From assembly GCF_019649055.1 (NCBI RefSeq), contig NW_026570480.1, forward strand, positions 1 to 64,000: DNA of 64,000 bases, written 5' to 3'. Below the pieces are notes generated by a model that was not told where the DNA came from, did no database searches, and was given only the letters and a program-made list of their open reading frames with translations. Positions 1 through 47,692 of the stretch are shown one piece after another (within the stretch, counting starts at the first letter, position 1; every line of letters begins with the position of its first letter). Origin of the DNA: Paramacrobiotus metropolitanus (taxonomy: Eukaryota; Tardigrada; Eutardigrada; Parachela; Macrobiotidae). Both the position numbers and the translations under genes were made by a program.

Positions 1-1
1 A

Positions 2-970
2 CCGAGTGTAATTACGACCACAGATTTCACGGAGGAACAGTGGAAGAATGTGTACTGGCCTATCGGCGCGATCCGTCCAGACGAGAAGATCAAGAGCCTA
101 AACGAGCTAATGGGCAACGGAAATAAGTGGATGAAAGCCTTTTTCCAGATCGGCAGTAATTTCACTGCGATAGATGGCATCAGACCGCTGCAAGGCGAAC
201 AACCAATGATGGACTGGAGTGCCGTGCGCAATCAGCTGAAGGAAGCTGGCGGCAGCGTGCACTGGAACGGCGATAAGTTTGTCATTAAACCGATGACACT
301 GCACTGTATCAACATGAGCGCCATCCGCGGGAACGAGAACCTCGGTTCGATCACGGTGTGGAGCAGTCCAAACCATGCTGACCTTTCGTCGGCTATAAAC
401 AAAGATATTGACAACGTTAACCGAGACCAGCTGGGTGACGACCTCCACCGGATGAAGCGCAGCTTGAACCAGACGTCTGAACATTTATCTCAGATAGCTC
501 ACACCGTTTCGACGTTAGTACCTGTGGGCACAATAGTAGCGTATCATCGCGATTACAACGTCCCTGACTGCTGGTTGGAGTGTAACGGCGCGGAGTTCAG
601 TAACGGGGAATACCCGCTTCTGGCGGCTGTATTGCAGCGAACCATCACACCGGATTTGCAAGGGAAATTTCCCATCGGTATCAATTCGAGTGATCCATTA
701 GTACAGCTGACTGGAGTGGCCGGCGGTGAGAAGAGTCATGTCTTGACAGCGGACGAAATGCCGGTGCACAGTCACACCATTCCGGCGTGGTCTCAAGAAG
801 CGCAATATTATGAGGACGGGTCAGCCAATAAACTGGCCCCCTCGTCAGTCGGCGATGACAGCCAATACAGTGGCCAGAAAGATGTCACCAGTCTGTCGGT
901 GGGAGGAGGTCAGGCTCACAATAACTTGCCCCCGTTTTTGACCGTTCGCTATCTGATTCGCGCGTGCTAA
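2..970 (+). CDS. Secreted tail-collar-domain family protein, copy 1 (5' end outside window)
   Basis: The frame is open from the first bases of the window to TAA at 968-970, so this is the 3' part (322 residues) of a longer gene. It aligns along its length with the copies at 2671-5251 and 8748-10608, so about 270 N-terminal residues lie outside. Visible parts are a family core with WPIGAIRPDEKIKSLNE, a short heptad-like stretch, and a C-terminal module resembling the phage tail collar domain: VPVGTIVAYHRD, CWLECNGAEFS, PLLAAVL, TPDLQGKFPIGI, GGEKSHVLTADEMPVHSHT and GGGQAHNNLPPFL. That domain is known from phage short tail fibres and bacterial Mdp-type proteins. The protein ends in RAC, like its paralogues. 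Function is unknown; secretion is inferred from the paralogues' signal peptides. Confidence 0.8.
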   Translation, partial: PSVITTTDFTEEQWKNVYWPIGAIRPDEKIKSLNELMGNGNKWMKAFFQIGSNFTAIDGIRPLQGEQPMMDWSAVRNQLKEAGGSVHWNGDKFVIKPMTLHCINMSAIRGNENLGSITVWSSPNHADLSSAINKDIDNVNRDQLGDDLHRMKRSLNQTSEHLSQIAHTVSTLVPVGTIVAYHRDYNVPDCWLECNGAEFSNGEYPLLAAVLQRTITPDLQGKFPIGINSSDPLVQLTGVAGGEKSHVLTADEMPVHSHTIPAWSQEAQYYEDGSANKLAPSSVGDDSQYSGQKDVTSLSVGGGQAHNNLPPFLTVRYLIRAC

Positions 971-2670
971 ATGAAGGGAATTATTTGTGTACAGATAGAG
1001 CTTGTATTTTTCGTTTAAATTTAATGATTTAGCATATGTGAGATATATGTACTTACTATTACCGGCTCATATAATATTATCATTTTACTGGAAAAATTTA
1101 CGGTACAAGCCAAATTCCCTTAACATTAGTGTGCTACAATTTTAATGTGTAATGTGAATACAATATCGATTCATAATTTTAACGGTTACAACCAGGGATT
1201 ATTGCTTCCAAATTAGGATATAAAGTCGAAAGAGCGTTTCTATGATCTCATGTACATATATCATATATAGATATCTGCATTATAAAATTAATATTCGTAG
1301 ATATGACTATATCAGTATTTTTGATAAGGAATAGCTTTGGTAGTACAAATAGTGCATGCACATGCAAACACGGATACATTTCATGATAGGTACAATTTAA
1401 TCATCATAAAAGGTGCGTAGTAAATCCACAATAGTCCAAAAAACCCGAGGTACAAGCGAAAACACGAAGGATACTCGCGGCCTGGGCAGGAATGTATAAC
1501 ATAACCGGCATCTTCCGAATCTGCACTGCGCACGGCACGCCAGTCCATCATTGGTTGTTCGCCTTGCAGCGGTCTGATGCCATCTGCACTTTTCAATGCA
1601 ATTATCTTTTAATTAGCGTGTCCCACGATATTCAGGGCCGCAGTATCTTTTGCGCAAACTGCATTTATCCTGCTATTTCCAACTGCATATCAAGCGCGAA
1701 TATCTATATTTGAAAGCTACGTTTTAACTAGGGTAGTACAGACTACACAGTACACGCCAGCCGGTCCAGCTAAGAAGTTCCATGCCATACTTTTATATGA
1801 TGTACAGCATTGCTGATTAGGTATAATTTGTACTGAACGCGAAAGTTTGCAACAAAAGTGCTCTCGACGTTTAAAGAGCATGTGTTTACCAAAATCGTTC
1901 AAAATTACAGTGAAAAGAGTAAATTATTTCGGTTTGTACAGATATAAAGAGAGCAAGAGGAAACTAAAACACATTATAACTGTAGTCGGTGACTCGGTAC
2001 TATACTAAAGACAAGAAACACAATCTTGCGCTGTCTGACAATTAAATTTGACGCGCCGCACTAAATCGGTCGCTCTGGATCATGTCGGGGAGATGTCGCG
2101 CGCTCCTGATTAATCTCTCTTATCTACTGTTATAACACTGTAATAGTTAACGGCTTTCTTCTTCGATAGTCTTCCTAGATAGCACCACCTTAGTGTTTGC
2201 GTCGTAAATATGTACACACTACACATCAGCATAGAAACGGCTGATGAACAACAAGAATCACTATCTTTACAGTCAGTCGTCAAGCGAGACGAGGATGCGC
2301 ACGAAATAACTGGATGCTTAGTTATGAGAAGGCAAGATAAATTCGTGACCGACCCTGTAAATCAGAAATCATGATGCTGACGAGAGATTATTAGTGAGCT
2401 CAATCCAATCACCGCGTAGCGGCTAGAAATTCAACATGGCTCCCTAGTCTCTTTTATCAAGAGTCGGTAGCTGCCGGTTTCTAAGCAACTTCGTAGGAGT
2501 ACGTTACAACCAGCAACACAGCAGCAATTTGAAAGGAGCGTTTCGTTTTGCGGTGTGATTTGGATTAGTTTGCACGGTGGTAAATTATTGCAAGTTTGGT
2601 CTACGCTGCGACGGGACAGAATTATCACGGTCAACGTTTCAGTTTTGATCACCGATTTCCGTTAAGTAAA
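971..2670. other. Intergenic, AT-rich
   Basis: Between two collar-family genes in the same orientation. Apart from the inverted gene fragment at 1509-1590 I see no convincing coding exon; the short ORFs are AT-rich and lack splice support. It should contain the promoter of the gene starting at 2671. Confidence 0.6.
1509..1590 (-). pseudogene. Inverted fragment of the collar-family gene
   Basis: Read on the minus strand, about 80 bp encode DGIRPLQGEQPMMDWRAVR, nearly identical at DNA level to positions 173-232 of copy 1. The copy at 2671-5251 differs here at several synonymous sites, so copy 1 is the likely source. Nothing on either side continues the homology. Confidence 0.75.
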
Positions 2671-5251
2671 ATGCTGAGATTCGTATTAGGAGGGTTGCTA
2701 TGCTGGATGATGATGCCCCCACAAGGGGTTGTATGCTTTGACGGTATGCCAATGCTGCAAATGCCATCCATACAGTTCGGTAGGTCTTGAAGACTTGAAT
2801 TAAAACACTGCAGCTGTTGTTGGTAAAAAGGTCAGCTGATATAATCATATACGCGGTTTTGTCAACTTCGGATTAAGTTTGTTATTTTCTGCATTACATA
2901 TGTGCTTCGCATGCAACCTCTTCATTCTGGAATTTGTTTTTCTTTTTATTTGGAATATGAACAGTTTTAAAAATTTTAGAACCTTTCAAAGTATTTCCAA
3001 AGCTAGTATCTCCCAGCGGGGCGAATACTACTTTATTCCAGAATTTCCCCGTTTAGGTGTGTTTAAAATATTCCACACTCGTAACTTCTTAATCATAATC
3101 CCATGCTGCACCCGAAACGCTAATGGTCGCTTGACAGATAACTTTATTATTTCTGCAAAACAGCTGCAAACCGGGTTAGCAATAAGATGTCCGAAACCCG
3201 TCCTGCCGGGTTAGAATGTAATTAACTCATATTTACGATTTTGGATGTTTTTCAATGTTTAATTTTATTCATTTTCATTGGAATTAACCTGAGCAAGCGC
3301 ACGGATGTGTGCGCTGGCTGTTGCGGAGTACAACAAAAAATACGATAATTATAATTCAAATCAGAAATGCGGTATAATCTAGTTACAATTTTCCAGTATT
3401 TTTTTTTCAAATAAATTAAATTAAATGTAGCAGAGTGATTGTTTAGATATGTCTCTGTATGCGAAAGCTTCTGAACTGAATGATTACTTCATCCTGCCCA
3501 ACTCAAAACTGCCTTAATTTTTCGAAATAGTGCCAACTGTGGAAGAAGTCGATTCACTTTCTGCCATTTTGGAACGTCGTTCCGCCTTCCTGAGCATCCC
3601 ATATAAAAACTTCCAAGCCAGAATTTACAGGGAATCTAATGGTTCGCCCAACGTGACCTACTATTACGCCCCAGCCTGCACGTTTATCCCCAACTCCACG
3701 TATATCGTGTACAATAACCATCAGAACTACCTGGTCTTCTCGTTGCAACTCTGGGATGCTGATTATCAAGACTACATTGAGACAGAATTATGGAAGCTAG
3801 GTCTGTTGTCCAGTTCTCTGAATCCTCGCATCATTCCCTTCCACAGTATGCGCTTGGAACTAATCGACAGTACACTGCCGGTAAAGGTCATGAACCAATG
3901 GATTCCCATTTCGCACCAACCGTCGACTGTTCTTGGACGGATTATCTGCTCAACGGAAAATGAGTGTAATATGATTAAGAACGCAGTGGAAAATCCCCGG
4001 GATCAGCTGCTCTTTGGTCTGGAAGCGTCGTTTGCGTTAAAGAAGCCCAATCGCACCAAACGCGAGATCACTCTCACCGCGACAATGTTCGAGGCCTCGG
4101 AGATTTTCCGTTCCATCGAGCACCGGTTTTCTGAGGCGCAAACCATCTGTATGCAGTTACCGGATCTACGTCGGCTTCTGCGGGAAGCCCTGGATCATCT
4201 CCTGGAAAAATCCGTTCCCGATGATGAATTCGTCGGCGAAAGCCAGCTATTCACAGCTGTCAAGAATTTTCTACGAATTATCAAGCCTAATGTGACGTTG
4301 ACGACGGATTTCACGGAGGAGCAGTGGAAGAATGTGTACTGGCCTATTGGCGCGATCCGTCCGGACGAAAAGATCAAGAGCCTGAACGAGCTGCTGGGCA
4401 ACGGGAATAAATGGATGAAAGCCTTTTTCCAGATCGGTAGTAACTTCACCGCGTTAGAAGGCATTAAGCCGCTCCAGGGCGAACAGCCTATGATGGACTG
4501 GAGTGCCGTGCGCAATCAGCTGAAGGAAGCTGGCGGCAGCGTGCACTGGAACGGCGATAAATTCGTCATTAAACCGATGACGTTACATTGTATTAACATA
4601 AGCGCCATCCGCGGAAACAAGAACCTCGGCTCGATCACGGTGTGGAGCAGTCAAAAACGTGCTGACCTTTCGTCGGCTATTAACAAAGATAGCGACAACC
4701 GCGATCAGCTGAGTGTCGAGCTCCACCGGATGAAGCGCAGCCTGAATCAGACATCTGAACAACTGCTTAACATATCTCAAACTTTATCGTCGCTAGTGCC
4801 GGTTGGTACAGTTGTAGCGTATCATCGTGACACCATCGTGCCGGAGTGTTGGCTGGAGTGTAACGGCGCGGAGTTCAGCAACGTAACGTACCCGCTTTTG
4901 GCGACAGTGCTAGGACGAACAACTACACCGAGTTTGCGGGGAAAATTCCTAATGGGCGTTAATCATTACAACGGTCCCGTTGAACGGGTAGTGGGAGTGG
5001 CCGGCGGCGAGAGAAGCCATGTCTTGACGGTGGACGAAATGCCGGTACACAATCACACCATCCCAGCGTGGTCCGTATCCAGTTATAATAATGTAAACGA
5101 GCTAATAAATAAATTGACCCCATCGTCCATCGACAACGGCAATCGCTACTATGGCGAGAAAGAAGTGACCAGCCTTTCCTCGGGAAAAGGTCAATCGCAT
5201 AACAACCTGCCGCCGTATGTGACTGTTCGCTATATGATTCGCGCATGCTAA
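2671..5251 (+). CDS. Secreted tail-collar-domain family protein, copy 2
   Basis: Proposed join of 2671-2743 and 3531-5251 (597 residues), with a phase-1 GT-AG intron of 787 bp. Exon 1 encodes a signal peptide (MLRFVLGGLLCWMM...). The same exon layout and phase occur in copy 3, which supports the join. Exon 2 has, in order: a conserved N-terminal region (PYKNFQARIY, YYYAP, IIPFHSMR, VKVMNQW); a basic RTKR that could be a furin-type site; an acidic helical region (PDDEFVGE); the WPIGAIRPDE core; a short coiled-coil-like segment; and a C-terminal tail-collar-like module with CWLECNGAEFS, GGERSHVLTVDEMPVHNHT and HNNLPPYVTVRY. Many NxS/T sequons fit an extracellular protein. An AATAAA lies near 5516. 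Role unknown. The 3530 acceptor (TTCGAAATAG) has only a weak pyrimidine tract, so the first intron is less certain. Confidence 0.8.
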
Positions 5252-6225
5252 AGGAAGGAAGGAAGTGTTTAATATTATGTTTAATTGTACCTCTGTATGG
5301 GATCGGTTATTAACCGATAATATGATAATAATCCAAACGTCTGCTATCAGTTTCGGATAATGTGCTACGTTATTACCATTTCATGGTAATTTTAATATTA
5401 ATAATGAATTAAATTAATGACGTGCGTTTCTGTAAACCTAATGCAAAATACGTTTTTGATTTGCGGTGTCTTTTGTACTTCGAGCGTGTCTTATGAGCCT
5501 AATGTTAAAAGTTATAATAAATTAATGGGCAATCGTAATAAATCAATACGCATGTGCCAGTTTATTACTTACCACTAACAGAAAACAGATGCGCATAATA
5601 CTCGTATAATTCTTTCTTTACAATACAGTAAGTACTCCTTGTTGACAATATGTACACGACTTTATGCAATATGCACCAAAGTTTTCCGGATACATCCTGT
5701 GTGCGTGACTGCAGTTGTTACGATACAATTTGTGTACAAACACTCGAAATTTTTACGCTAAACTGTTGATATTACACTCATACAGACTACTGAGAAACGT
5801 CCGGTCATTATCATGTGGTGTGCAGCTAGGAGGGAGTGCTTAGGTAAGTATTTTTGGCAAACTTTATTTTTCACCGGAAATGTAAAGAAGAATCCTACAT
5901 GCTAAACTTGGTGCTCATGGAATCTTGGCCAAAACTTCAAGTACTATAAATTTTTTCCGTGAAAAATGTAGCAAACAAGTAGGATTTACCGCTAAATCTG
6001 AAGTGTCTGGGCAGGGCGCGTGTTTCCCCAAGATTATGCATGATAGATGATAGTGCGAAAACATCAATTGCGTGTTTCCAATACAAGTATAAATAACTAG
6101 GATAACCCGCATTTCCAGCATATCGCGGTGTGGTAAAATAAAATTCCAATAACTCTGTTAAAGATTAACTGCGTGAAACCGTTAACTGCTTGTTTTTTTT
6201 TGTAATTTCGATTAGCAGATCCATA
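5252..6225. other. Intergenic, AT-rich
   Basis: 3' flank of collar copy 2 (AATAAA near 5516) and 5' flank of the small gene at 6226. A short ATG ORF at about 5811 runs into GTAAGT but has no partner exon that I can identify. Confidence 0.5.
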
Positions 6226-6593
6226 ATGAAGTTCACCAGTGTGTTTTTTGGATTGTTGGTGATTTTGGCGGCTGGTAAGTCAGGTGGTGGTTATTAGATT
6301 ATGCGGCGTAGTGGCGTGAAATGTTACGAAAATTTATTGACAGCTTTATGGAAAAATAGATTGAATATGAGCTTGAGATTTGTGACCTTTGAAGCCTTAT
6401 ATGTTTTTCTTGCTTAGCGGTCTGGGTTGATTTGACGGCTGCGGATCCTGGGCATCATAGTGGTGGATATAGCGATTATGGAAAGTACCGACGCCGTTAT
6501 GGCCCAAGTGGTTATGGCTATGGTTATGGTAACAACTGGCGCTACAAGCGAGGAGCCGAAGTTTTGGAAGGAATACCCAATAATCTCATTTAA
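6226..6593 (+). CDS. Small secreted Gly/Tyr-rich peptide precursor
   Basis: Proposed join of 6226-6274 and 6418-6593 (74 residues), with a clean GTAAGT...TTGCTTAG intron of 143 bp in phase 1. Residues 1-25 are a signal peptide (MKFTSVFFGLLVILAA...). The mature part is rich in Gly, Tyr and His. RRR at 41-43 and KR at 60-61 bracket a 16-residue segment, YGPSGYGYGYGNNWRY, followed by an acidic tail. That layout fits a processed peptide. Nematode YGGYG-type antimicrobial or neuropeptide-like proteins have a similar composition, but a small cuticle protein is also possible. Poly(A) signals lie near 6775 and 6868. I do not recognise an orthologue. Confidence 0.65.
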
Positions 6594-7305
6594 TACCTTC
6601 ATGGGAAATAGCCTCTGTTCCAAATAAGCCGGAATACTTTTGCGAAATTCATATTTCTTTAAAGTTTTAGAAGTGCTGTACAGTATACTAATACTGTTCT
6701 AGGTATGCATTGTGTATGCATTATTACATAATCGTGAACGCTGTACAGGAGATGTAAATACAGCAGTAAAATGTAATAAAATTTAATGTGATGTTCATTG
6801 ATAGAGGTACCCATGCGCTGGAATCTTTCAGATATTGTCAGAATCTATCATGTACTCGTATACAAGAAATAAATGCCGTTTTTACCCAATACGAGGCACC
6901 TGAAAAGAGCTAAAAATTCAACACGCATTAATGAGTTAGAAAATAATAATATTTTTATGTACACTACAAGATATAGGTTTCTGAATATTGTACTCTTCTT
7001 TTTTTTTATCAAACTCTGTTTATTGATTGATTGGCAGTCTACTGCGGCTCAAGCATCTCATAAAGTTATCTGTACAGTACTGCTTTTAAGGTGTGTTTCT
7101 ACGTTTTTCCCTTATTTTTGTCAAAAGGGAATTCAAAATAAATTTTTGAAAAATATTTTAACGAGTAGCGTAAGACGTTACACTTATTTGAGAACCAACC
7201 ATACTCGTGTTAACATTTTAGAGTCAGAATCAAAACCTGAAAAAGCAATCAAAATCTCTAACATCTCGACGAGATGATCTCGTGAAGTATTTTGACTGCT
7301 AAGTA
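6594..7305. other. Intergenic, AT-rich
   Basis: 3' flank of the small peptide gene, then AT-rich sequence up to the LINE fragment. A 134-codon ORF (6873-7277) has low-complexity AT-driven composition and no recognisable motif. Confidence 0.5.
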
Positions 7306-8135
7306 GTGTACCCGCGATTGCGTCTTACGCTATGCAATAGCTATCGCCTATTAAAGACAACGCTGAACACTTATGCAAGGCTAACCGAATTGCGGGCCAC
7401 AAAGGAGGAAATCGCTCACCTAAAGGCGGTATCTGTCCCCGAATCTGGTGTATGGATTCATGCGTTACCCGCAGCATGTCTCGGAAATTTGCTGGAAAAC
7501 AACACTTTTCGCATAAGCATAGCGCTACGCTTGGGAGCTCCAATCGTCACTCCTCACGTGTGCGTTTGCGGTGGACTAGTGGATGATCTGGGGCGGCACG
7601 GGCTCCGTTGTAAACGGTCAGCCGGCAGATTGCCAAGACATGATGGCCTCAGCGGAGAGTTCACCCGCGGCCTGAAAACCGCAGGTTTCCCAGCCAGAAT
7701 GGAACCAAAAGGTCTCTCTGTGAAAGATCGCAAAAGGCCGGACGTGATCACGCTCGTACCCTGGGAGCGCGGAAAGCCACTGGCTATCGACGTGACTTGC
7801 GTAGACACACTAGCGGCTTCGTATATTGATCGGACCCTGGTGAACGTCGGGGCTGCGGCCGAGCACGCGGAGCGAGGAAAGCTGACAAAACACGGCTGGC
7901 TGCAACCAAGGTACAATTTCATGGCAGCAGCATTTGAAATCTACGGACCCTGGGAAATGGAACTAAAACGCTCGTCCAGAAGATAGGAAACGGAATTGCA
8001 ACTGCTACCGGCCAAAAACGCGCAAAAGAGTGTTTTAGGCAGCGGCTATTTATTCAAATGCAACGGGGAAACGCGATATGCGTGATGGGTACAATCCCCG
8101 AACAGGATAGCATCGAAGAAGTGTTTTTATTATAA
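7306..8135 (+). mobile_element. 5'-truncated non-LTR retrotransposon (LINE) 3' end, degenerate
   Basis: A 226-codon open frame (7306-7986) resembles the region after reverse transcriptase in some invertebrate LINEs. It has CVCGGLVDDLGRHGLRCKR (Cys/His knuckle), RLPRHDGL, EPKGLSVKDRKRPDVITL, PWERGKPLAIDVTCVDTLA and a PRYNFMAAAFEIYGPW block. The expected continuation (QRLFIQMQRGNAICVMGT) is in another frame from about 7970 on, so there is a one-base shift near 7965. No reverse transcriptase or endonuclease lies upstream. This is a dead, 5'-truncated insertion, as is usual for LINEs. Family assignment is from memory of related proteins. Confidence 0.75.
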
Positions 8136-8747
8136 ATTATATTCTGCTTTGGTACTCAGTTTTGTACTAGCACTGTGATACTTATTAAAGGTCTTAACAT
8201 TAAAGACAAACTTTTTAGACAGAAAATAATCGTGGCGCGGGTTAATAATAATAATATGTTTCTGAAACCGCTGCACGAAAAATCAGTCGGTGATAACAGT
8301 TGGCCCCTTTGCGATGCAATATTACGGTATACCTTACTGCCGTCAAAATAAAGAATAATTATTACGCTCACAGTAAGCACCGGTTTTCCACTCATCATAG
8401 TCACGTTTCCTATTGGCTGAAAAACAAAAAATGATGATTTGTAGATTTAGTTTCCCCCGGAGACACTGCAGAAACGCAATAATTTTTCTTCCAAAAATTC
8501 ATTACACCTTGGTGAACAACCTGAAGCGGAAGTGTCAGCCTCCAGCAATTAAACACAAACTGCAGCATTTTATATTAAGGAAGTTTAGTTACAGGAAAGA
8601 AAGGGTTTCAAAAAAATCTGGCCGGTATACGCGAGTACGGACATCTACATCTTGAATTCCATTAATGCAGCGAGAAGCCACCAACCGAAACCTTGGCGGT
8701 GCAGCTAAGACACAAAGAGGAATTCCATCCAGCAAACACCGGACAGC
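8136..8747. other. Intergenic / 5' flank of collar copy 3
   Basis: No convincing coding exon. It follows the LINE 3' end and should include its tail and the promoter of the next gene. Confidence 0.5.
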
Positions 8748-10608
8748 ATGTTTAGAGCTGTGTTAGGATTGCTGTGGTGTCTTCAGATTGCACCGCAGCA
8801 CTGTGGTACGTAAAAGGCAATATGAGGCACTACCGTCCATAAGTTGAAAGTTTCAGTACCTTTGTCATATATAATGCTGCGCCGTTTGGCTATATAGTGG
8901 CCGTAAAATATAAGAGCCATACTTTTTTTTTGCAGCTGCCTCTGTCGACCTGTCTTCCGCCTTCATCAACGTCCCATACAAAAATTTCCAGGTACGAATA
9001 TATAAAGACACCGGTGACTTGGCGGCTAATGGGTCTTACTACTACGCACCCGCTGGCTTGTTTGTACCCAACTCAACATATATCGTCCATAACGAGCTGC
9101 AAAGCTATGTAGCCTTTTCAGTTAAATTATGGGATATTTACTACGGAGAACACATCCAATCACAACTTTCCCAGCAGGGCCGTCAGTTGAGTCCGTCAAA
9201 CGTTCGCATTATCCCATTTCACAGTATGCGCGTGGACGTAATAGAGAACACCCTACCGATAAAAGTCATGAATCAATGGACGCCCATTCCGCATCAACCG
9301 GCTTTCGTACTGGTGCGCATTCTCTGCGCAACCGATCCTGAATGCACCAGCGTTCAAAATGCCGTGGAGAATTCTCAAGATCAGCTTCTGTTCGGCTTAG
9401 AACTGACCTTCGCGCTGAAGAAACCGGTGGATACTAAGCGGAATATTTCGATCAAGGCTGCAGCTCTTCAGTCATCGGATACATTCCGGGCAATCCAGCA
9501 GAAATTCTACCGAATGCCGGTTGTATGTCTGCAGTATACCGATCTGCGGCGGCTGGCGCGGGAAGCCCTCGATACTCTTTTGGAGGAAGCCATACCCGAT
9601 GAAGACTTTGTCAGCGAGAACGAATTGTACAAAGCTACGAACAGCGTAGTCCGGCTTTTAAAGCCCAACGTCAGGTCGACTACCGAATTCACGGAACAGA
9701 GCTGGAAAGGCGTCTTCTGGCCGGTCGGCAGCATCCGTCCTGACGAAATGATAAAAAATCTTAACGAATCTTTAGGTAACGGTAATAACTGGATCAAAGC
9801 GTACTTTCAATCGGGCAATAATTCCACTGCCCTGGAGAGCACTTCGTCGATGGACTGGAGCGGTATTCGTTCGCAGCTAAAAGATTCGAAAGCTTTTATC
9901 CTTTGGAACGGTGATAGATTCATTATCCGCCCGATGACGCTGCATTGTATTAACCTTACCGCGCTAAATTCGGACGGCGCCATAGGGCAAATAAAAGTGT
10001 GGAGTAGTTCAAAAGCCGGGGATCTCTCATCGGCCGTCAATGTGCCATTTTCCGGAAACCGTGAATCAACTGTAATGGATATTGAGCGTTTAAAATCGAC
10101 CGTTGATGACGTAGCGCGGCAGCTATATAATTTATCCACAGCTTTGGAAAATACCACACCTATCGGCAGCATTATAGCGTACCATTGCGACGCTTCCCTA
10201 CCGCCGTGCTGGTTGCTTTGCGATGGGGCGCCTTTCGATAACGGAACGTATCCACTTTTGGCGACTGCGTTGTTTCCGCGTGTTAATACACCGGATCTGC
10301 TAGAACGCTTTCCAATGGGAATCAGTCAGAAGGGTAATTACAGCTATGTGGGGCAAAGGGGCGGTGAGGCAGAGCATGTCCTTACCATTAACGAGATACC
10401 GTCGCACAGCCACGAAATTCGATCATGGCCGGACTCGGGGTACAATTACGTGTATGGGGATAACAAACTGAAGTCTGGCATCATTACGGACAGAGATGTT
10501 GACGGCAGTGGAGGAAAACGAATGAACACCACGACGACGGGAGGCGGTCAGGCACATAACAATTTGCCGCCATTTTTGACGACAAGGTTTATAATACGAG
10601 CTTGCTAG
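8748..10608 (+). CDS. Secreted tail-collar-domain family protein, copy 3
   Basis: Join of 8748-8805 and 8936-10608 (576 residues). The intron is GTACGT...TTTTTTTTGCAG, 130 bp, phase 1. Exon 1 is a signal peptide (MFRAVLGLLWCLQIAPQHC). Exon 2 follows the family order: PYKNFQVRIY, YYYAP, IIPFHSMR, VKVMNQW, an acidic helical region (PDEDFVSE), WPVGSIRPDE, a coiled-coil-like stretch (IERLKSTVDDVARQLYNL), then the tail-collar-like module (PIGSIIAYH, CWLLCDGAPFD, TPDLLERFPMGI, GGEAEHVLTINEIPSHSH, GGGQAHNNLPPFL, ending RAC). It is clearly more diverged than copies 1 and 2 are from each other. Paired cysteines and sequons fit secretion. A trimeric, fibre-like fold is known for phage collar domains, but whether it applies here is inference. 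Confidence 0.88.
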
Positions 10609-18870: not shown

Positions 18871-19529
18871 GGGTAATACAAAACGCCACTGACAGCACAC
18901 GAGACCCAGCGAAAAAGGAAACAGTCATCACTGAAATGATGCAGGAGAATCCTGAAAAATGATGATTAAATTTATTTGGAAGCTCTGACGTGCGGGTGGG
19001 CAGAGCACTGGGAACGGAGAATACAACTCATTAATTTGAGAGATGCAGTCAGATGGAAAAGCAATACAGTCGCTTGATCAAAATTATTCTTCCAATTGCA
19101 TACACAGACCATGTCAAATTGTGACCTTGAGAAATTCCCATATGCTTGCTGGCTGATGAAATTTTGAATAGGTTTCCTTTCAGTTTTATTTTCGTTTCGA
19201 CCCATAGTAAACGTAAGAGTATAACAGCGGCTCACTCAATTCATCCACAAATTAATAGTGCAGTCTACGCGTTACGCAAACGGTGATACTTGTTGTTGCT
19301 GATGTCCGTACGTGCAATATTTACGTCTAATTTCGTGCGTAGGTAGCTCTGACTCAACATCGGACGACTCCCTTAGAAATGGGGACAAAGGGTTAATTTC
19401 CAAATTACCTCTGGGAGGCATACATATTTCCATGGAAAATACGATGCGCGAAATTAAACGACAAACTGCACTACTTCACGCGAAGAGCCATCCGCCAAGC
19501 TGCGCGTTGCTTTGTTTCCCAGCAAAAAT
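18871..19529. other. 5' flank of the GPCR gene
   Basis: No coding exon recognised. Expected to include the promoter of the gene at 19530. Confidence 0.4.
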
Positions 19530-20530
19530 ATGGGTGAGAACACCAGCATTAATAACGCATCAGCCCCGTTATACTGGCATGCAAATAATAACTTTAAGCA
19601 TGGCGTGATATCTTCGCACTGGTCTGTTCACAACTTCATCGAACTGTTAATGGTAATTGCAGCCGTTGGGTTGAATTTTGGTGTCCTCCTATACAATTTC
19701 ATCAAGCCGCGACAAATCACCTCCTTTAGCATTTACCTCATAGCGTTATATTTGGCCAATCTGGTCTTCTTTCTCGCTGCGCGTCCTTTCCTGATGATCA
19801 GCGAGGTGTACGCCACCTGGACGCTGGGTCGTAGTATGTGTATTTTTTACTTATACGTGGCCAAAGTGGTCAGCATTATCCCAGTGTACATGCACGTCCT
19901 GATTAGCGTTAACCGTCTGTGGGCCTATATCTTTCCGCTGCATTATCGCTCCTATCATACCAAGTCTGTGGCATTGCTAATCTCCTTAGCGGCGGTTGCG
20001 TGGGTACATGTGTTTGCTTTATCAGGATTCCTTGTGGATATCTTGCGGAATTACCGGCGCGAGCACATCCCTAACTGCACAAGCTATGCAGGATTCATAA
20101 TGGCGTGGAAACATACCGAATATGTTGTTGATCGCATCTTGCCTTTATGTTTCATCGTTTCTGCTTACACGTACTTGGTAATCAAGCGCCGGCAAAACGA
20201 AGAAGGCACAATTCAGCTGTTGCACCACAACGGGCGTTAACCGATATGACGCAATCGCCGGCCTACGCAGCGGGTAATACGACCCAGATAGAAAGCCAAA
20301 GGTCACTACGCAAGGTTAAACCCTTTTTGGTCCTCACGTTGACATCTGTCAGCGTTCTTGTTTGCTGGATGCCTATAGATGTATATTTTATTTGTTGGTT
20401 TCTGGATTGTCCCTTATTACGGAATGTATTTTACGTTTGCTCTCTTTTATATGGCGCTGAGGGTGTGTTCGATCCTTTCATGTTCATTTTCAGTCTACGC
20501 AGACCGAAATCGCGTTACTATAGCGGATAA
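19530..20530 (+). CDS. Rhodopsin-family GPCR, one frameshift in intracellular loop 3
   Basis: Starts at ATG 19530 (MGENTSINNASAPLYW, two N-glycosylation sequons). TM1-TM5 run in one frame to TAA at 20240. TM6 and TM7 continue in the next frame to 20530, so one base is gained or lost between about 20150 and 20240, in the loop after VIKRRQ. TM3 ends with ISVNRLWAYIFPLHY, where the DRY motif has become NRL. TM6 keeps CWMPIDVY (the CWxP switch). TM7 has DPFMF in place of NPxxY. The family resembles the aminergic-like receptors at 43811, 49910 and 56885 (ISVDRLWAVTFP). The loop is where a shift could be tolerated least visibly. A recent pseudogene or a sequence error are both possible. Ligand unknown. 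Confidence 0.75.
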
Positions 20531-33100: not shown

Positions 33101-34246
33101 ATGCGCTGGAACTATATGCTTATTTTATTTATCGCTATTCTGAGCATCCTTGCGGTTACCTTTACACTACGGCATCCAGGTAAAATAAGCGTTTTTAAAT
33201 AAAATATATGTATGTATGTAGTATGTACATAAAATATGTTCACATGTACATGTACATTTTATGACATCTGCTTTAGAGCGTTACTGCAGTTAGTCTTTAA
33301 TTACGTAAAAATAGCTTCTTTTCAGCGGTGATTTACCACTGAATCCATGTTAGACGTAAATCTATTTTACAACAAAGAAAATTTACCTAACCACCGATTA
33401 CGAAGCGTACATCCAGCGCTTTGTTATAAACTAGCAGTATTTATTCGCAGCATGCATAACATACCGGCATAGGATGATCAGTGGATATATCATACGTCAG
33501 TGCATTATTGAACTAATGCAGGATGATAAAGTACTTCGCATCGGAAAACAACCGGAGCGATGCCGAATTCCCGGATCTACAGTTTTCCCGCTGTTCAACG
33601 CTTTTGATCAACGATTCTCCCAACAAAGCATGGCATGTTTACGGGAATGTGATTTACACAGGATTATTCGGGAGACGTTTGACCACGCCCTGGAAAGTAA
33701 CCTTTCCGATGAGGAGTTCGTCAGTGAAGATCAGATGTACGGTGTCATTAGTCGGCGGTGCGGTTATTCCTTCCTAAAATAGTCTCCACCACGAATTTTA
33801 CCGATTTAATGTGGCAGAATACATTTTGGCTAGAACACTCGGAGCGTCCTGATCAAAAGATCAAGTTCCTCAACGACAAAGTGGCCAACGGGAATAAGTG
33901 GATGAAAGCGCTGTTCAAGAGCGGGCCAGTGTTTCGCGCCCTGGATTCACCGCGTACCGCCCTGGACCCACAGTCACAAGAGGATCTTACTAGTATCGTG
34001 ACGAAGGTCAATACCTCCGAGGGAATGGTGCAATGGGATGGAGACATGTTTGTCATTCGGCCAATGACGCTGTACTGCCTCAATCTGGATACAGTACGAT
34101 CGACGGAGAAGTTTGGGAATTTCACGGTATGGGCCAGTGGTAAGGCGGGTGATTTGTCGGCAACCGTGAATATTCCGCTGACTAATCTGACAGCGACGAC
34201 GGTGGAGAAACAGTGGACGTTGTGCCACTGCAAGTGCACTTGTTAA
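33101..34246 (+). pseudogene. Dead collar-family gene, copy 4
   Basis: 33101-33179 is an intact signal-peptide exon (MRWNYMLILFIAILSILAV...) ending in phase 1 at GTAAAA, as in the live copies. The next recognisable homology starts near 33390 (TTACGAAGCGTACATCCAGC) and is badly shortened. From 33474 one frame gives the acidic helical region (SDEEFVSEDQMY). It shifts at about 33770 to a second frame with the core (FTDLMWQNTFWLEHSERPDQKIK, GNKWMKALF). That frame stops at 34246 with the whole tail-collar module missing. Shifts and lost N- and C-terminal parts mark it as a pseudogene, shared in origin with 39400-40450. Confidence 0.8.
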
Positions 34247-39399: not shown

Positions 39400-40450
39400 T
39401 TTTTCAACACGGTTTGCTCCTTCCTCCCACTTCCGCGAGGAGTAGTGTGTCGACAGCTTGGAAGATGCGTAACTGCCGAATCTGTCGCCTATTATGCTGC
39501 ACTTCTTCCTGCAAATAGTAGTCAATCAACATGTTGTCTACTTCTCCCTGGACCTGCATGGTCGACCACCGATTACGAAGCGTACATCCAGCGTTTGTTA
39601 CGGATAAATTGCAGCAATGCACACACCAGACCTCCGCATTATTCCCTTCCGCAGCATGAGTGTTGATACCTCCGATAACACTTACCGGCATCAAAGGATG
39701 GACCATTGGATTTGTACAGCGGATCGCCCGACACGGACTTTTGGACGGTTGATACAGTATGTACAGCGGGGCGGCAGTACCACGAACTTGCTGAATTAAT
39801 GCAGCATGATAAAGAGTACTTTGCAACGGGACTGAATGTCTCCTTTACGTGGAAACAACCAGAGCGCTTTAAACGCTGTGTTCCATTGGTAAAAGAAGAT
39901 CTCCAATTTTCTCGCTGTTTACCGCTTTTGACAAACTATTCTCCCACCAAAATATGGCTTATTTACTTGAATGCGATTTACACCAGATTCTTCGGGAGAC
40001 GTTAGAACACGGGCTAGAAAGAAGATGTAGACTTCGATGAAGATGATGATTTCTCCGAGAGATGAAGAGTTTGTTAGTGACGACCAGGTGCACGGTGTCA
40101 TCAATCAAGCTTATTGTATGTAAAGGTTACTACTACCTTACTAGTACTCTATGTATCTGAAAGAAGTGAGAATCTTTACTGAAAATTGGACATATCGCAG
40201 CCGAACACAAACAACAGCAACTGTAAGAAGCACATCAGGGCGTAGCTAGGAAGACATACAGGCATACAGAGTAGAATCTCGAGATATCGTGTACACTCTG
40301 TACGTACGTACACTCATACATCACACAAGCAGTGTGGCTATTCATTCATAAAATCGATTCCACGGAGAACTCTACCGATTTAATATGGCAGAACACATTT
40401 TGGTTAGAGTACTTAGAGCGCCCGAGCAAAAGGTCACTCGCCATTAAAGA
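39400..40450 (+). pseudogene. Dead collar-family gene, copy 5
   Basis: Homologous pieces appear in the right order in several frames. They are YYAALLPANS (for YYYAPACTFIPNS), then a TTACGAAGCGTACATCCAGCG stretch shared with copy 4, HRPPHYSLPQHEC/RIIPFRSMSVD, FATGLNVSFTWKQPERFKR, and SPTKIWL. The acidic region EEFVSDDQVHGVI lies near 40070. After about 230 bp of unrelated sequence the core (FTDLIWQNTFWLEYLERP) appears at 40370-40440. No tail-collar module follows. It shares several changes with copy 4, so the two derive from one duplicated ancestor. Confidence 0.75.
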
Positions 40451-40630: not shown

Positions 40631-41473
40631 TCATGCTTTAGGCTTATTATGGACGTTTCGGGCAGGAGTAGAGGCGGTTGGTGCGTGGGATTTTTTGTCC
40701 ACTTTAAGATGTTCCCGTCCTCGCTGTGGTTCATTCCTTTTTCTCGCTTGAGGCGCTGCGTTTCGTTCTCGCTGATCATGATGCACTACTTTCGACGGCT
40801 CCGTTTCGGAAAATTGTATGACTCCTGCAGGTGCACACTGGCAACACCCTGGCGACCCACAAAAAACACTCCCACAGACATAAACACCGCCGCCGCTGCA
40901 TGGATTTTGATTTGTAACATATGGTGCCCCGGTCGTATAGTGACTCGCCAAAATAACACCGTTAGCATAATGAACTAAGGATAGTCCCGTGCCATTGCCG
41001 GTAATATGCGTCTGGCTGGCTACCGAATGATGCTGGCCGTCGTTCGTGCTGTTGGAATAACTCTGGTCGCTGTTTTGCATTATACCGGTGGTGCCACTCC
41101 CGTACGAATTTGCTGTATTGCTGCCAGTGATGTAAGGATTGGCAGGTAGCGTTGGATCAAACTGCAGATCGCTACTACCGCTGCCACTGAAAGATACCGA
41201 TGTGCCTGCGACATTATTTTGCGAGATGACCACGGAGTGTTGGTTGCCGTTGGTCAGCGAAGATGACTGCTCAATGGCCAGGTCGACCTGTCCATTAGTT
41301 GCTGATCCTTGGCCAAATCCTGCGCCGCTGCCTCCAGTGTCACCTACGTATAAATTGCCGTAATAATTTTGTCAGTTTGTCGCAGTACAAATGTATTAAC
41401 AAGCGGCTCACTTACTGAATACCCCTGGACAAGGCAAAAGAAAGCAAAAAAGAAACCAAATAACGTTCTTCAT
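40631..41473 (-). CDS. Secreted Gly/Ser/Asn/Gln-rich protein with Cys-rich tail (GS family), copy 1
   Basis: Minus-strand join of 41416-41473 and 40631-41343 (256 residues); phase-1 intron of 72 bp (GTAAGT...TACGTAG). Exon 1 is a signal peptide (MKNVIWFLFCFLLPCPGVF). The mature protein starts SDTGGSGAG and has NGQVDL, SGSGSSDLQFDP, NSTNDGQHHSVASQTHITGN and GTGLSL: the family's repeating N-G/Q-S/V pattern. A Cys-rich module follows (CSGGGVYVCGSVFCGSPGCCQC), then a basic tail (RKRNEPQRGRE). It is the most diverged live copy. Head-to-head with copy 2 at 42523 across about 1 kb. Secreted; role unknown, with an adhesive or matrix role guessed from composition only. Confidence 0.8.
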
Positions 41474-42522: not shown

Positions 42523-43429
42523 ATGCAGTTTTTTCCATTAATTTTAGGTTTTGCGTCGCTGGTCTTGGGTATGTAGGCGTTTGCTAGTTTGTCTTAGATA
42601 TAAAAAGCATTTTTATAAAGAGCTTTCGAAGATTTCTAAATGGGTTCACGCTATTTTTCCAGGTGACACCGGTGGTTCAAGTGGATCATCCGGGAGTGGA
42701 GGAGCGGCCAACGGCCAGGTCCAGTTAAACAGTCAACAAGCAACCGTTCTGGATAACGGTAGCCACAACTCGGTGGGCCAATCGCAAAGCCTCGTCTCTG
42801 GCACAACGCTGAACATCGGTGGCAGCAGCAGCTCCAGCCTGCAGTATGACCCTTCGGTCACCGCCAATCCAGCGTCCGCCTTCGGTAGTAACTACGTTAA
42901 TGCCAATGGTAACGCGATGACCGGCGTCCTACAGAACAACCAGAACAGCCAATCCAACAGTACCAGTGATGGCCAGCATCACAGCGTGATCAGTCAGTCT
43001 CAGGTCAACGGTAACGGCACGGGAATATCCGTGAGTAATTCGGCCTCGGGAAGTGTGTATTTGCGCCTTCCCACCACAACCCCGCGCTATATAACGACAA
43101 CAGGGTGCAGCTATTCTGGTCTTACCTGTTACGGCGCCGGTTGCGTGCCGATTAACAGTGGCCCCGATTCCTGCTGGTGTTCATGTTGGTCAGTATCAAC
43201 TCCTCATTACATCACTGACACAACATACCCAGCGACAGCAACGCCATCGCCTCTTGCTGTAGCCAACGGTTCACGCGTGGATCAGCGGCAGAGGAGACCC
43301 AGCGGCGGATCAATAATTAGAAATGGTCACAATATTCTGAAGAGTCGGGAAAAACTGCCATCACGCGGGAAAGAACAAGCGCAAGTTGGTCATACGACGC
43401 TGCCCCGTAATTTTCGAAAGAAAGCATAA
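42523..43429 (+). CDS. GS-family secreted protein, copy 2
   Basis: Join of 42523-42568 and 42663-43429 (270 residues); phase-1 intron of 94 bp (GTATGT...TTTTTCCAG). The signal peptide MQFFPLILGFASLVLG is almost that of copy 4. The mature N-terminus GDTGGSSGSSGSGG is followed by NGQVQLNSQQATVLDNGSHN, SVGQSQSLVSGTTLNIGGS, LQYDPSVTANP, SNSTSDGQHHSVISQSQVNG and NGTGISVSN. The spacing of N, Q, S and V is periodic, suggesting short beta strands. The Cys module is CSYSGLTCYGAGCVPINSGP then DSCWCSC (C-x5-C-x4-C-x9-C-x-C-x-C). A basic Arg/Lys/Gln tail closes it (DQRQRRPSGG). No similarity I can name. Confidence 0.85.
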
Positions 43430-43810: not shown

Positions 43811-44845
43811 TCACCGTCTTGGATTAACACCAGTAGACGCCGAATTTCCTGCTCTTTCGTCCACCGGTACCGATGGTTGGACGCCACGCGATTCGCGCCT
43901 GCGGCGACATCCCATTAACTTGCTGACCGCATTGTGCATTTCCGGGCTGCCCCAATTGAATAGAAACGGGTTAACCGCCGAGAGAGAATATCCCATCCAG
44001 TACGTCACCGTAAAAAAATCATAATTGTAGTATCCCGTTCTCATCGACAGTGCTTCGTAAGCAAAATACGGCCCAAACATGACGATCAGCGCGGCCATCA
44101 GCAGTGACAGCAGGACATACCCCTGATGCTCTTTCTTGGCTTGCTGCACTTCTCTCCACGTGGGCAGCGTACCGGTCGCGCTGATGCGGCGTGCACCCCG
44201 TCGTCTCCATATCTGCCACGTTGTCCCGCAATACGCTACAATGGTCATCAAAGCGGGCGTCCAGTATAAAAAGATTAATTGGTAAAAGCAGCTGGCGTAC
44301 GACGGCTGCAGCCACGCATCCCAATAGTATTCGCGGGGATCCTCGTTAATACCAAAATACACTCTGTAATACGTCAACGAAGGTACGATCAAACCATTAC
44401 TGAACACCCAAATGCCCAACACAGCTAACTGCGATTTCATACACGTATGGTGCCGTTTGTAAGAAACCGGAAAGGTCACGGCCCATAAGCGGTCCACGGA
44501 GATGGTCTGCAGCGTGAGCATCATGACGGAGGTGCTCAGGAAGTCGAAGTACATCCAGACGGTGCAGAGCGCGTAACTCCAGGGCCAGCAGTTGTAGTAG
44601 GTGAACACGGCGTAGCTGGTCATGCCCATGGTCCCGGTTAAGAAATCTGCAACAGCCAGGTTGAAGAGGTAGTAGTTGAAGGCGGTTCGGGCCTGTCGGT
44701 CAGCAAAGAAGGCGCAGATGACGAGAAAGTTGGCCGCTATCGTCATGGTTATAACGATGGAGATTAGCGTGATTTCCCACCAGGTACCGGATGGGACGGT
44801 TTGGTCCGTTGTGGTATTGGACGTCGTGTTATTAACAAGTGACAT
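43811..44845 (-). CDS. Aminergic-like rhodopsin-family GPCR, copy A
   Basis: 344 residues from ATG 44845 (MSLVNNTTSNTTTDQT, sequons), with no intron. The frame is open 37 codons further, but homology with copy B only begins at this Met. Seven TM segments are visible. TM2 has NLAVADFLTGTMG. TM3 has the aminergic-type Asp (YFDFLSTSVMML) and ISVDRLWAVTFPVSYKRHHT, where DRY reads DRL. Extracellular loop 2 keeps a Cys. Loop 3 is short and basic (WRRRGARRIS). TM6 reads VMFGPYFAYE, so the W of CWxP is Phe. TM7 is NPFLFNWGSPEMHNA in place of NPxxY. Best general fit is the muscarinic/biogenic-amine group, but ligand and G protein are unknown. Confidence 0.88.
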   Translation of the reverse strand: MSLVNNTTSNTTTDQTVPSGTWWEITLISIVITMTIAANFLVICAFFADRQARTAFNYYLFNLAVADFLTGTMGMTSYAVFTYYNCWPWSYALCTVWMYFDFLSTSVMMLTLQTISVDRLWAVTFPVSYKRHHTCMKSQLAVLGIWVFSNGLIVPSLTYYRVYFGINEDPREYYWDAWLQPSYASCFYQLIFLYWTPALMTIVAYCGTTWQIWRRRGARRISATGTLPTWREVQQAKKEHQGYVLLSLLMAALIVMFGPYFAYEALSMRTGYYNYDFFTVTYWMGYSLSAVNPFLFNWGSPEMHNAVSKLMGCRRRRESRGVQPSVPVDERAGNSASTGVNPRR

Positions 44846-46176
44846 TTTATAGCCGGTTGATCCCGAGAGCGTCTTTACTAGCTGGCATGGGTGGAGTTTC
44901 TTATATGCGCTATAACAACCAGGTATGTCATGTAATCGCCTCCAATAGCTCGTCACTTTATCGGAACACTTTGACCAAAATCATACTGCAAGCTTGAGAA
45001 GACAAGACGTTCTTCTCAGAACGACACAAAGGGTAAGATGGTATTTATACGTGATAATTTGTCCTGACGTAACTTGCAACATTAAAATATTACTGTCATC
45101 CACAGAGCAGACGTTCCATAGTTTACTTGAAGCTATGTTTGTCCTGGCCAAATTTGGATACTAACTGACTCATAAATGTATGTATCTGCTCTACCGGAAC
45201 AACAGCTACAGGGCGTAATACAACACTTCAGGATTTCCTTTGAAAATTACCGTGACGTAAGCTTAGTGTAGTGTTTACCGAATTGTTACTTCGACCATTT
45301 ACAGATAGTGCTCTCAACCTTTAGTACTTACGCTCTGACCCGAAGATAATAATTTTATTATTGATCATAAGACCTCAATAGTTATAAGCACATCGAAATA
45401 CATAGATAGCTACTCTGGGTAGAGTAATCTGAATTATCTGATGCACTGTCATTTTCATGGATTGCGAACTGGAACAGTATGGTGGCGATTTGCATACATA
45501 AACGAACCATTACAAATCAGCAACGAGTTGTAATTAAGCAAGCGGAAATTAAAAATGCCTGAAGCATTAGCATTAGCATTTAGAAGAAATGCCCCAGTAT
45601 AGTTTTCTGCAAGTACAGTTTCTGTATATCAAAGTTTATGGTTTTGGCAAGAAAAATGTCTGCCGCCTTAACGTAAAGACAGAAGTTAGTCCAAGTGTAT
45701 TAAATTAAACAGAGATAATTTTACTAATAAATATATGTATTAGAGTGCTCTTGAGACAGACCGCAACACTTTTCACGACCGTCAGCCGGTCTAACACTGA
45801 CCGACGTCAAATTTACAGGTCGGTCGCATGACGGCGATGATGTCATTGGCCAGTAATAAGGGGCTTTTCGGATGTTTCAAATTAAAAAGCGTTTACGCAG
45901 CACTATTTTCTTGTACGTGCAAGTTTTTAACAATACATGGTTACTACGGTAGTGATACAAATTTGGGTAACAGTAGAAACTAAACAATTTAACTTCCTTA
46001 ATGTTGTGGGAAACACTTGCAGGGGATTTGGGAAAGGACGCCGCATCGGCACAGAGCCGAGAGGGGATGCATGGGCGCACCCACAGTTGAGTCACGCAAA
46101 AACACCAGTTTAATGAGTGAGCATATTGGTACGCACTAACTGAAGTCATGAACATCAATTTAATAACTAACGCTCA
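44846..46176. other. Upstream region of GPCR copy A, part of the 6.1-kb duplication
   Basis: No coding exon. Stretches match 50945-52256 at about +6.1 kb, e.g. GGAAATTAAAAATGCctGAAG near 45545 against AGAAATTAAAAATGCatGAAG near 51660. Confidence 0.6.
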
Positions 46177-46889
46177 TCATGCTCCGGAACGGGAATTAAG
46201 GAACATAAGCGTACGACCCGCGTTCACTTGTGCCTTTCCACGGCTTTTTTGTAAATCATGTCCGTTTTTCTTCGTTGACGGCGCAGATTTCCTCTGCCGC
46301 TGATCGGCCGCATGAAGCGACCGTGGAGGCGGTGCCGGTGCGTCTGTTGCATCTTCGGAGTCGTAAGGAGCTGTAGGACACGCACAGTTGCAACTAGGAT
46401 ATCCGTTCTCAACCACCGTGCAGCCGTAACCGTGGCACGTGACGCCCTGGCATGGAGAGCGCGACGGATAGGTTGTGGTGGGATTGCGCAGATACAGACT
46501 AGCCTGCACCGAATTGCCGAGCGATAATCCCATGCCGTTGCCGGTGACCTGCGACTGGCCGACCACACTGTGATGCTGACCGTCGCTGGAGCTGTTGGAT
46601 CGGCTGTTCTGGTTGCTCTGTAGGACACCGGTCATCGCGTTACCCGATGCACTAACGTAATTATTGCCGGAGGCGGACGCTGGTTTGGCGGTTACCAAAG
46701 GGTCATACTGCAGACCGGAGTTGGCGCTGCCAAAAATATTCAGCGTTGTGCCGGAGGCCAGAGTCTGTGATTGGCCCACAGAGTTGTGGTTCCCATCGTC
46801 TAGGGCGGTGGCTTGCTGAATATCTAGCTGGACCTGTCCATCGGTTGCGCCGCCCCTTGCGGTGGATCCACTTGAGCCGCCGGTGTCAC
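46177..46889 (-). CDS. GS-family protein, copy 3 (second exon; signal-peptide exon not found)
   Basis: The large exon is intact: it begins after TTTACAG with GDTGGSSGSTARGG and ends at 46177. Family blocks are NGQ-like DGQVQLDIQQATALDDGNHN, SVGQSQTLASGTTLNI, LQYDPLVTAKP, SSDGQHHSVVGQSQVTGNG and GLSLGNS. The Cys module is CQGVTCHGYGC then SCNCAC, and the tail is basic (DQRQRKSAPSTKK). In the other copies a 46-bp signal-peptide exon lies about 95 bp upstream. At the matching place here (46980-47040) the sequence is unrelated, and the frame simply runs upstream without an ATG. The duplication breakpoint may have removed exon 1, so the copy may be silent or use an unseen first exon. Confidence 0.65.
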
Positions 46890-47692
46890 CTGTAAATGCA
46901 TCGTCGTTAGATCGAAAAACACACTTCTCTTTTAAAATACTATACAATCTTGTCTCGTAATTTCCAGAGAAAATAAAAATTCCCGGGTTGACGCCAGACT
47001 TCACACTACGGCACGTCACACCACACTAGTTGCGCTCCACAGGCATCTGTCATGGCTAATGCATGTCAGATATCGATCGAAATGATAAACTATCCATATA
47101 AATTATAAAGTGGTAAATACCTCCTATATATACTTAAATAGCCTCCTATATATTGTTGAGAAATTTGCCATTGTGGTAGACGCAGTATAGTGTCAATCGT
47201 TCATAGCGCAACTCGACTTCGAGTTTACATACTTCGATTTATCTAGAACTTTACGAGAGACATTACGAGACAAGCTTGTACATACCGAAAGCAAGGTGCA
47301 GACAGGTGACAGCAGTGAAGCTAGCGACAGATGTGGCTTCGTTATTCGTTCTTATTTCTGTGTTAAAGAAAGACCAGAGAACGCTTACATCGAATTGGTA
47401 AATGTCGTTTTTTAAAGAAACGTTTGGTGGCTTATATTTCAGTTGTCCACTATCGGAAGCTTAGTTGTGTAATGCTAATTTGTGGATACAAAAGCAGTCA
47501 AATAAGTCACAGCGTTGTCTTTCTTTGTTCTGTTAGCCGCTTCCAGCGGTACATGGATACATTCATCGTGACGAAAGTTTAAGCAAGTCGTTATGTCAAC
47601 AGCTAACATGCAATAAAAAATACGCCATTCATCATACGTAATCGGGCTGATGGATGATGTACACGCACAAAATAATGTTTGGTGTATCAATC

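Follow-up and report, generated by a model that had tools for sequence, protein, structure and literature searches.

Analysis of the first 64,000 nucleotides of contig NW_026570480.1 from the tardigrade Paramacrobiotus metropolitanus (this whole stretch is referred to as the window) reveals three related genes, A, B and C, on the forward strand within its first 10.6 kb. The predicted products combine an N-terminal region that we call the head, a heptad stretch, and a C-terminal domain of the tail-collar kind. Gene B has a complete two-exon model of 609 amino acids (2671–2779 joined to 3531–5251). Exon 1 encodes a signal peptide and ends at a GT donor at position 2780 in phase 1, and exon 2 encodes the head (3569–4705), the heptad stretch (to 4795) and the collar (4796–5248), followed by the stop codon. 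Gene C is also complete, at 576 amino acids, with a signal-peptide exon (8748–8805; GT donor at 8806, phase 1) and a second exon (8936–10608) containing the head (8944–10062), the heptad stretch (to 10155), the collar (10156–10605) and the stop. The GT-AG phase-1 intron lies at the same place in both genes, directly after the signal-peptide exon. In these two genes, the only ones for which it was modelled, exon 1 yields a hydrophobic signal peptide as judged by hydropathy, and no membrane span was found downstream of it (highest 19-residue hydropathy mean 1.3 in B and 1.0 in C); with a signal peptide and without a membrane anchor, both proteins are predicted to be secreted. Gene A is present as its 3′ part only (2–970, forward strand), with the end of the head at 2–421, a heptad stretch, and the collar at about 518–967, the gene being cut by the start of the contig. 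Window positions 1–1262 match contig C230:1000–2252 in reverse (97.9% identity, 6 mismatches and 8 gap openings), in what looks like a contig-end overlap. The C230 version contains frame breaks, so that gene A may or may not be intact. An earlier note on this DNA had described three live-looking genes sharing a signal-peptide exon; this stands for the complete genes B and C, the exon included, with gene A subject to the doubt just given.

The C-terminal modules of A, B and C are confirmed by sequence profiles as homologues of the tail-collar fibre tips of phages and bacteria. First, PF07484 is matched with 30.7, 28.9 and 25.5 bits by A, B and C, respectively (E 3e-7, 1.1e-6 and 1.3e-5), against a curated cut-off of 24. 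Second, Gp10_C (PF21939; cut-off 27) is matched by A with 31.2 bits and by B with 33.9 bits; gene C scores 25.8 bits in the window scan, under the cut-off, and 28.4 bits in a genome search, over it, 13 of the 23 places found in that search being over the cut-off. Third, PHROG tail and tail-fibre families are matched with best E-values of 1.1e-18 (A), 1.8e-18 (B) and 2.1e-14 (C). Fourth, tblastn comparison with phage tail genes gives a best E of 1e-15, with about 31–34% identity among the matches listed, and at E 1e-5 the gene C collar matches 276 phage records and the gene A collar 297. Finally, the best match of the gene A collar in a scan of prokaryotes is a Flavobacteriales protein (L029; 42% identity over the domain). 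Matches to PDB sequences, obtained by phmmer with gene C, are weak for both of the best entries (gp37, 2xgf, E 0.08; short tail fibre, 9cuy, E 0.17), and the case for the collar therefore rests on the profiles. An NCBIfam scan of five proteins assigned no family. The tail-collar assignment proposed in the earlier note is thus carried by significant PF07484, PHROG and tblastn matches, and the landmarks it had listed are present: PIGSIIAYH, CDGAPF, PDLLERFPMG, HVLTINEIPSHSH and HNNLPPF in gene C, and HVLTADEMPVHSH in gene A.

The surroundings of these genes are those of an animal genome. Pfam matches among the window neighbours are to rhodopsin-type G protein-coupled receptors (GPCRs), a kinase domain and a phosphatase, and it is by the receptors and other neighbours, together with Link domains, that the host is recognized as an animal. 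PF00061 was matched at three places in the genome; the one inspected is an ordinary fatty-acid-binding protein, and the matches do not serve to diagnose the species. Across the genome (169.8 Mb in 533 contigs were searched) PF07484 is found at 35 places on 24 contigs, 33 of them over the cut-off. The tandem expansion of the earlier note, understood as a local set, gives way to a genome-wide family; its description as a host family is upheld by the introns and signal peptides of B and C, the 35 places, and the purifying selection described below. Might the genes belong instead to a prophage, an endogenous virus, or a bacterial contaminant misassembled into the animal genome? The collar relatives found outside this genome are indeed bacterial or viral, and virophages carry PF07484 tail proteins (PMC12724248 and PMC3671162). 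This explanation was rejected on the introns, the animal neighbours and the number of contigs, and we regard it as extremely improbable: B and C have a GT-AG intron and a signal exon, collar places are spread over 24 contigs, none of 13 other frames in the window is over the cut-off to a phage family while several are animal genes, and the scans made for the head in phages and IMG/VR did not find it.

The head, about 375 residues long in B and C, corresponds to what the earlier note had called a novel N-terminal region, and this description is sustained: comparison of 24 members with Pfam, PHROGs and PDB sequences gave no convincing match. In the alignment of these members P91 and W254 are invariant and a C-x5-C pair is at least 90% conserved. 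Searches for the head in phages (tblastn to E 10) and in IMG/VR (gene C head; six pattern matches, none confirmed) revealed no occurrence; prokaryotic genomes were not searched for it. An origin of the head as an internal repeat was considered and rejected, as hhalign comparison of four blocks matched only overlapping neighbour columns or nothing, with a positive control at 99.8%. With the gene C head as query there are 103 places in the genome at E 0.01, which fall into 84 gene-like sets, of which 30 continue into a collar, 12 into a Link domain and 42 into neither; the grouping follows a simple rule, so that the counts are rough, the weakest matches are remote, and some sets contain stops. 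Conversely, the head is present in the fetched flank of 32 of the 35 PF07484 places (the exceptions are on C15, C40 and C93), and the Link domain (PF00193) occurs at 17 places in all. Other tails on sister heads, all below cut-off, resemble CarboxypepD_reg (L017 and L023) or glue/mucin proteins (L024). A tree of 35 heads requires nine changes of tip type under the labels used; tips were therefore exchanged. Collar genes lie on both sides of its midpoint root, and a fair reading would place the collar near the root of the head family. The head is an apparently undescribed domain, common to about 84 gene-like groups of one genome. Two observations on the family stand apart. A cluster of genes with head and Link domains but no collar is present at L022 and on contig C106 of the genome, where four places recur about 46 kb apart with their order kept, as in a segmental duplication. 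On contig C15, a 256-residue frame (L109:2989–3756, reverse strand) with a hydrophobic stretch seen by eye, and in which no head domain was found, carries the first collar half only (PF07484 positions 1–37, 43 bits) shortly before its stop; it is a different collar gene, maybe separately acquired.

Collar relatives outside this genome, sought in phages, prokaryotes and viral contigs, are bacterial and viral, and the collar was probably derived long ago from a bacterial or viral gene. A eukaryotic virus is a possible carrier because virophages also carry PF07484 proteins. The old transfer from phage or bacteria suggested by the earlier note finds support as to direction; the trees would accommodate either kind of donor and one transfer or several. 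A quick tree, built from 30 host collars and the 32 top-scoring rows each of bacteria and viruses, places all the host collars on one side of a branch (Shimodaira-Hasegawa-like approximate likelihood ratio test, SH-aLRT, 83). A careful tree (25 host, 20 bacterial and 20 viral rows) resolves them as two groups, with a single group in 34% of 200 bootstrap trees, the bootstraps being not fully settled; a single host clade is not rejected (approximately unbiased test, AU, p 0.43). Several independent transfers, in which the collars of classes I and II came from different donors and each was joined to the head, would explain the two changes needed by the careful tree and its scarcity of single-group bootstraps, as well as the different cysteine pairs of the two classes. 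We think this doubtful in view of the single branch side in the quick tree, the AU result, and a head common to both classes.

Host collars differ from their bacterial and viral relatives in the cysteines they carry. The host set comprises 30 collars, eight rows shorter than 100 residues having been dropped beforehand (one of the 30, L009, being the gene A copy from the contig overlap); the comparison set of 193 comprises 148 bacterial and 45 viral-contig collars from searches seeded with the gene A collar (the best 80 of 155 and the best 80 of 271 loci). Cys18 is present in 21 of the 30 host collars and the C-terminal Cys150 in 19, with both in 18; the four mismatches are L009, L116, L125 and L012, all altered, truncated or out of frame at one end or the other. 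In another seven the class II pair, Cys29 and Cys36, is present, neither occurring without the other or alongside Cys18, and L014 has neither pair. At positions 18, 29, 36 and 150 there is no cysteine in any of the 148 bacterial or 45 viral-contig collars. The Fisher p of 2e-4 is indicative only, as paralogues are non-independent and the comparison set consists of best-scoring rows. The gain of cysteines in pairs suggests disulfides, which would fit secretion. In gene C the class I Cys18 (in PxC-W) is encoded at 10207–10209 and its candidate partner, Cys150, at 10603–10605, both on the forward strand. The HxH motif (HSH at 10405–10413, forward strand, in gene C) is by comparison shared: its two histidines are present in 29 and 30 of the 30 host collars, in 148 and 148 of the 148 bacterial collars, and in 40 and 40 of the 45 from viral contigs. 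In phage fibre tips HxH forms a metal site, and metal binding by the host collars is putative. N-glycosylation sequons are mildly more frequent in host collars (12.1 versus 8.9 and 9.7 per 1000 residues) and are not used as evidence.

A hypervariable loop separates the two halves of the collar, lying between HxH and GGxQAHNN; in gene C it spans 10420–10536 (forward strand) and is a candidate binding tip. In a set of 25 host rows, from which five that were broken or truncated had been removed and in which gaps counted as differences, the loop is 30–47 residues long with a mean pairwise identity of 0.07, compared with 0.40 before the loop and 0.55 after it. The pair L118 and L119 illustrates the pattern, with identities of 0.17 in the loop, 0.69 before and 0.91 after. 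In all ten chosen pairs, some of which share rows, the loop has a greater nonsynonymous divergence (dN) than the N-terminal part of the frame, and the ratio to synonymous divergence (dN/dS) ranges from 0.04 to 1.47 in the loop and from 0.02 to 0.23 in that part. For A versus B, dN/dS is 0.18 overall (collar 0.21, head part 0.12); in the remaining pairs whose dS could be measured it is 0.11–0.35, the top values (0.28–0.35) involving broken copies. Purifying selection acts on the collar frame throughout the family, and the intervening loop is fast-changing. A copy of gene C on C54 (92–94% identity) carries stops. Most paralogue pairs have a dS of at least 0.8, some being saturated, and because of these high values the data argue for an old family in which a few copies are recent.

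The short coiled coil noted earlier between head and collar is recognizable in the window genes as a heptad stretch of 32–36 residues. In 1000 shuffles each, the heptad power of A was attained 7 times, that of B 14 times and that of C 6 times. Stalks of relatives range from 18 to 248 residues, and none of 1000 shuffles attained the power shown by L020, whose stalk has 232 residues.

We consider it reasonably likely that these are the animal's own genes for secreted, fibre-like recognition proteins, forming trimeric fibres with variable tips. In B and C the mature protein that follows the signal peptide consists of head, heptad stretch and C-terminal collar. The head may anchor the fibre or couple it to another host partner, and stalk and collar would trimerise by analogy with phage T4 gp12 and gp37. 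HxH may bind metal, and under the oxidising conditions of the secretory route the new cysteine pair could lock the collar. Ligands, most likely microbial glycans or glycans of the animal's own matrix, may be bound by the loops at the tip. On this model the collar, acquired long ago, would have been fused to the head and the family then expanded, some members having a Link or other module instead. The secreted trimeric fibre or lectin that the earlier note had suggested is now better supported, as a candidate role, by the heptad stretch, HxH, the host cysteine pairs and the hypervariable loop. More tentatively, a phage-type tip may have become a diversified innate recognition repertoire, with dozens of secreted, disulfide-locked trimeric fibres of constant frame and fast loop that would bind glycans on bacterial surfaces, ligands of the kind that such tips bind in phages. 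The Link and mucin-like tails on sister heads fit microbial recognition as well as construction of the animal's own matrix, and sequence does not discriminate between the two.

Several points weigh against recognition by trimeric, variable-tip fibres. First, the trimer and the geometry of the tip are predicted from homology. Second, the heptad signal is not general: the linkers of class I members L025, L117, L118 and L119 (18–30 residues) are matched by 108, 78, 432 and 212 of 1000 shuffles, respectively, and those of class II members (L003, L004, L006, L007 and L008) are without heptads or too short for the test. The coiled-coil label is therefore limited to the window genes and long-stalked relatives, which a coiled-coil fibre would fit, and does not extend to the whole family. 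Third, cysteines near the C-terminus do occur in bacterial collars, at position 142 in 23 of the 148, at 146 in 43 and at 148 in 20. Fourth, loop dN/dS exceeds 1 in only one of the ten pairs, with dS often near saturation and the loop alignment uncertain. Fifth, bacterial loops vary too (identity 0.13 versus 0.49; 60 rows), and loop variability is therefore partly a property of the fold. Finally, 42 of the 84 head-bearing groups showed neither collar nor Link domain in the search. Some of this would suit structural extracellular proteins, in which the collar is a mere trimer clamp for fibres of matrix, cuticle, mucus or egg shell and the loop, being of no importance, drifts; paralogous heads with other extracellular modules (Link in 12 groups, and the CarboxypepD_reg-like and glue/mucin-like tails below cut-off), the range of stalk lengths, and the variation of bacterial loops would all be in keeping with it. 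It nonetheless seems the less probable course, since loop length is held within its range in the 25 rows and dN is raised there between tightly conserved flanking parts of the frame, and a mere clamp would hardly be needed in about 30 diverse copies.

In T4 gp37, as described in PMC12724248, the collar comprises residues 811–860 and 1016–1026, with the receptor-binding part (907–996) between them. As in fibres of the gp37/gp12 type, the collar halves of the host proteins are C-terminal and flank a variable insert, the host loop being at the matching place in terms of position and variability only; the host proteins differ in having no virion, and in their signal peptide, intron, new head, extra cysteine pairs and large animal family. 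Neither do the host genes lie among structural genes, as phage fibre genes do, but have introns and animal neighbours. The tripartite PF07484 tail proteins of virophages similarly combine a collar with a receptor-binding region in small viruses (PMC12724248), although these are short viral proteins rather than host genes and were compared by description only. A further comparison is with a candidate effector of Plasmodiophora brassicae (191 residues), which is eukaryotic, predicted to be secreted, and annotated with a 'Phage Tail Collar Domain'; it is a single short protein of a plant parasite, also compared by description only (PMC9530463). This one entry in a list of protist secreted-effector candidates, along with the signal peptides of B and C and the candidate binding tip, could point to secreted effectors or toxins delivered to other organisms. 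We consider such a role very unlikely here, as neither the window genes (Pfam and PHROG) nor 24 heads (Pfam, PHROG and PDB sequences) yielded a catalytic or pore-forming domain. The Flavobacteriales protein L029 (a 1142-residue frame), which gave the best match to the gene A collar, shares the C-terminal collar and a GGGQAHNNMPPF ending, but lacks cysteines at the four host positions and has a different N-terminal part. Snail fibrinogen-related proteins (FREPs) are an invertebrate recognition family with a signal peptide, a variable part, a binding tip and an expanded membership; they use fibrinogen and Ig modules, not a phage collar, and no kinship is claimed. If the recognition reading is correct, the part of a virus tail that binds receptors, or its relative in bacteria, has been taken over by an animal for secreted recognition or adhesion and diversified in about 30 copies; this would be a directly testable case in which a component of a phage weapon serves an animal outside its cells. 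Among the literature matches listed (titles and abstract starts, with most subscription journals and the protein databases outside the scope), none dealt with collar domains in tardigrades or other animals. A term search of the main text of PMC11191345, which gives an N50 of about 1.0 Mb for the P. metropolitanus assembly, did not return the words 'phage' or 'collar'.

Fragments of the family are also present in the window. Of the two dead copies reported earlier within 2–10608, one is accounted for by a tiny inverted piece at 1498–1596 (reverse strand), 59 bp of which (1527–1585) are 98% identical to gene A positions 172–230; a second was not found inside the interval, and further fragments of the head lie outside it. 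These comprise degenerate head-domain fragments at 33591–34204 (forward strand; two frames, one internal TAG, and no listed PF07484 place) and a short fragment at 39629–39826 (forward strand) with weak matches (E 7e-6 and 0.001).

Among the neighbouring genes, rhodopsin-type GPCR frames are located at 43814–44980 and 49913–51043 on the reverse strand, and at 19458–20237 and 56651–57310 on the forward strand. The two on the reverse strand are alike at their starts and are set among similar-looking frames rich in Gly, Ser, Asn and Gln (40634–41371, 46180–47025 and 52260–53045, reverse; 42548–43426, forward), three of which were scanned and have no Pfam match. Between genes B and C, a small exon-pair gene candidate at 6226–6590 (forward strand) begins much as a signal peptide does (MKFTSVFFGLLVILAA) and continues into a part rich in Gly and Tyr, the second frame having no Pfam match. 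A further forward frame at 7303–8095, also without a Pfam match, resembles the end of a retrotransposon lacking long terminal repeats (non-LTR), and a 69.5% identical copy of 7408–8095 is present in L007, where it adjoins another collar gene.

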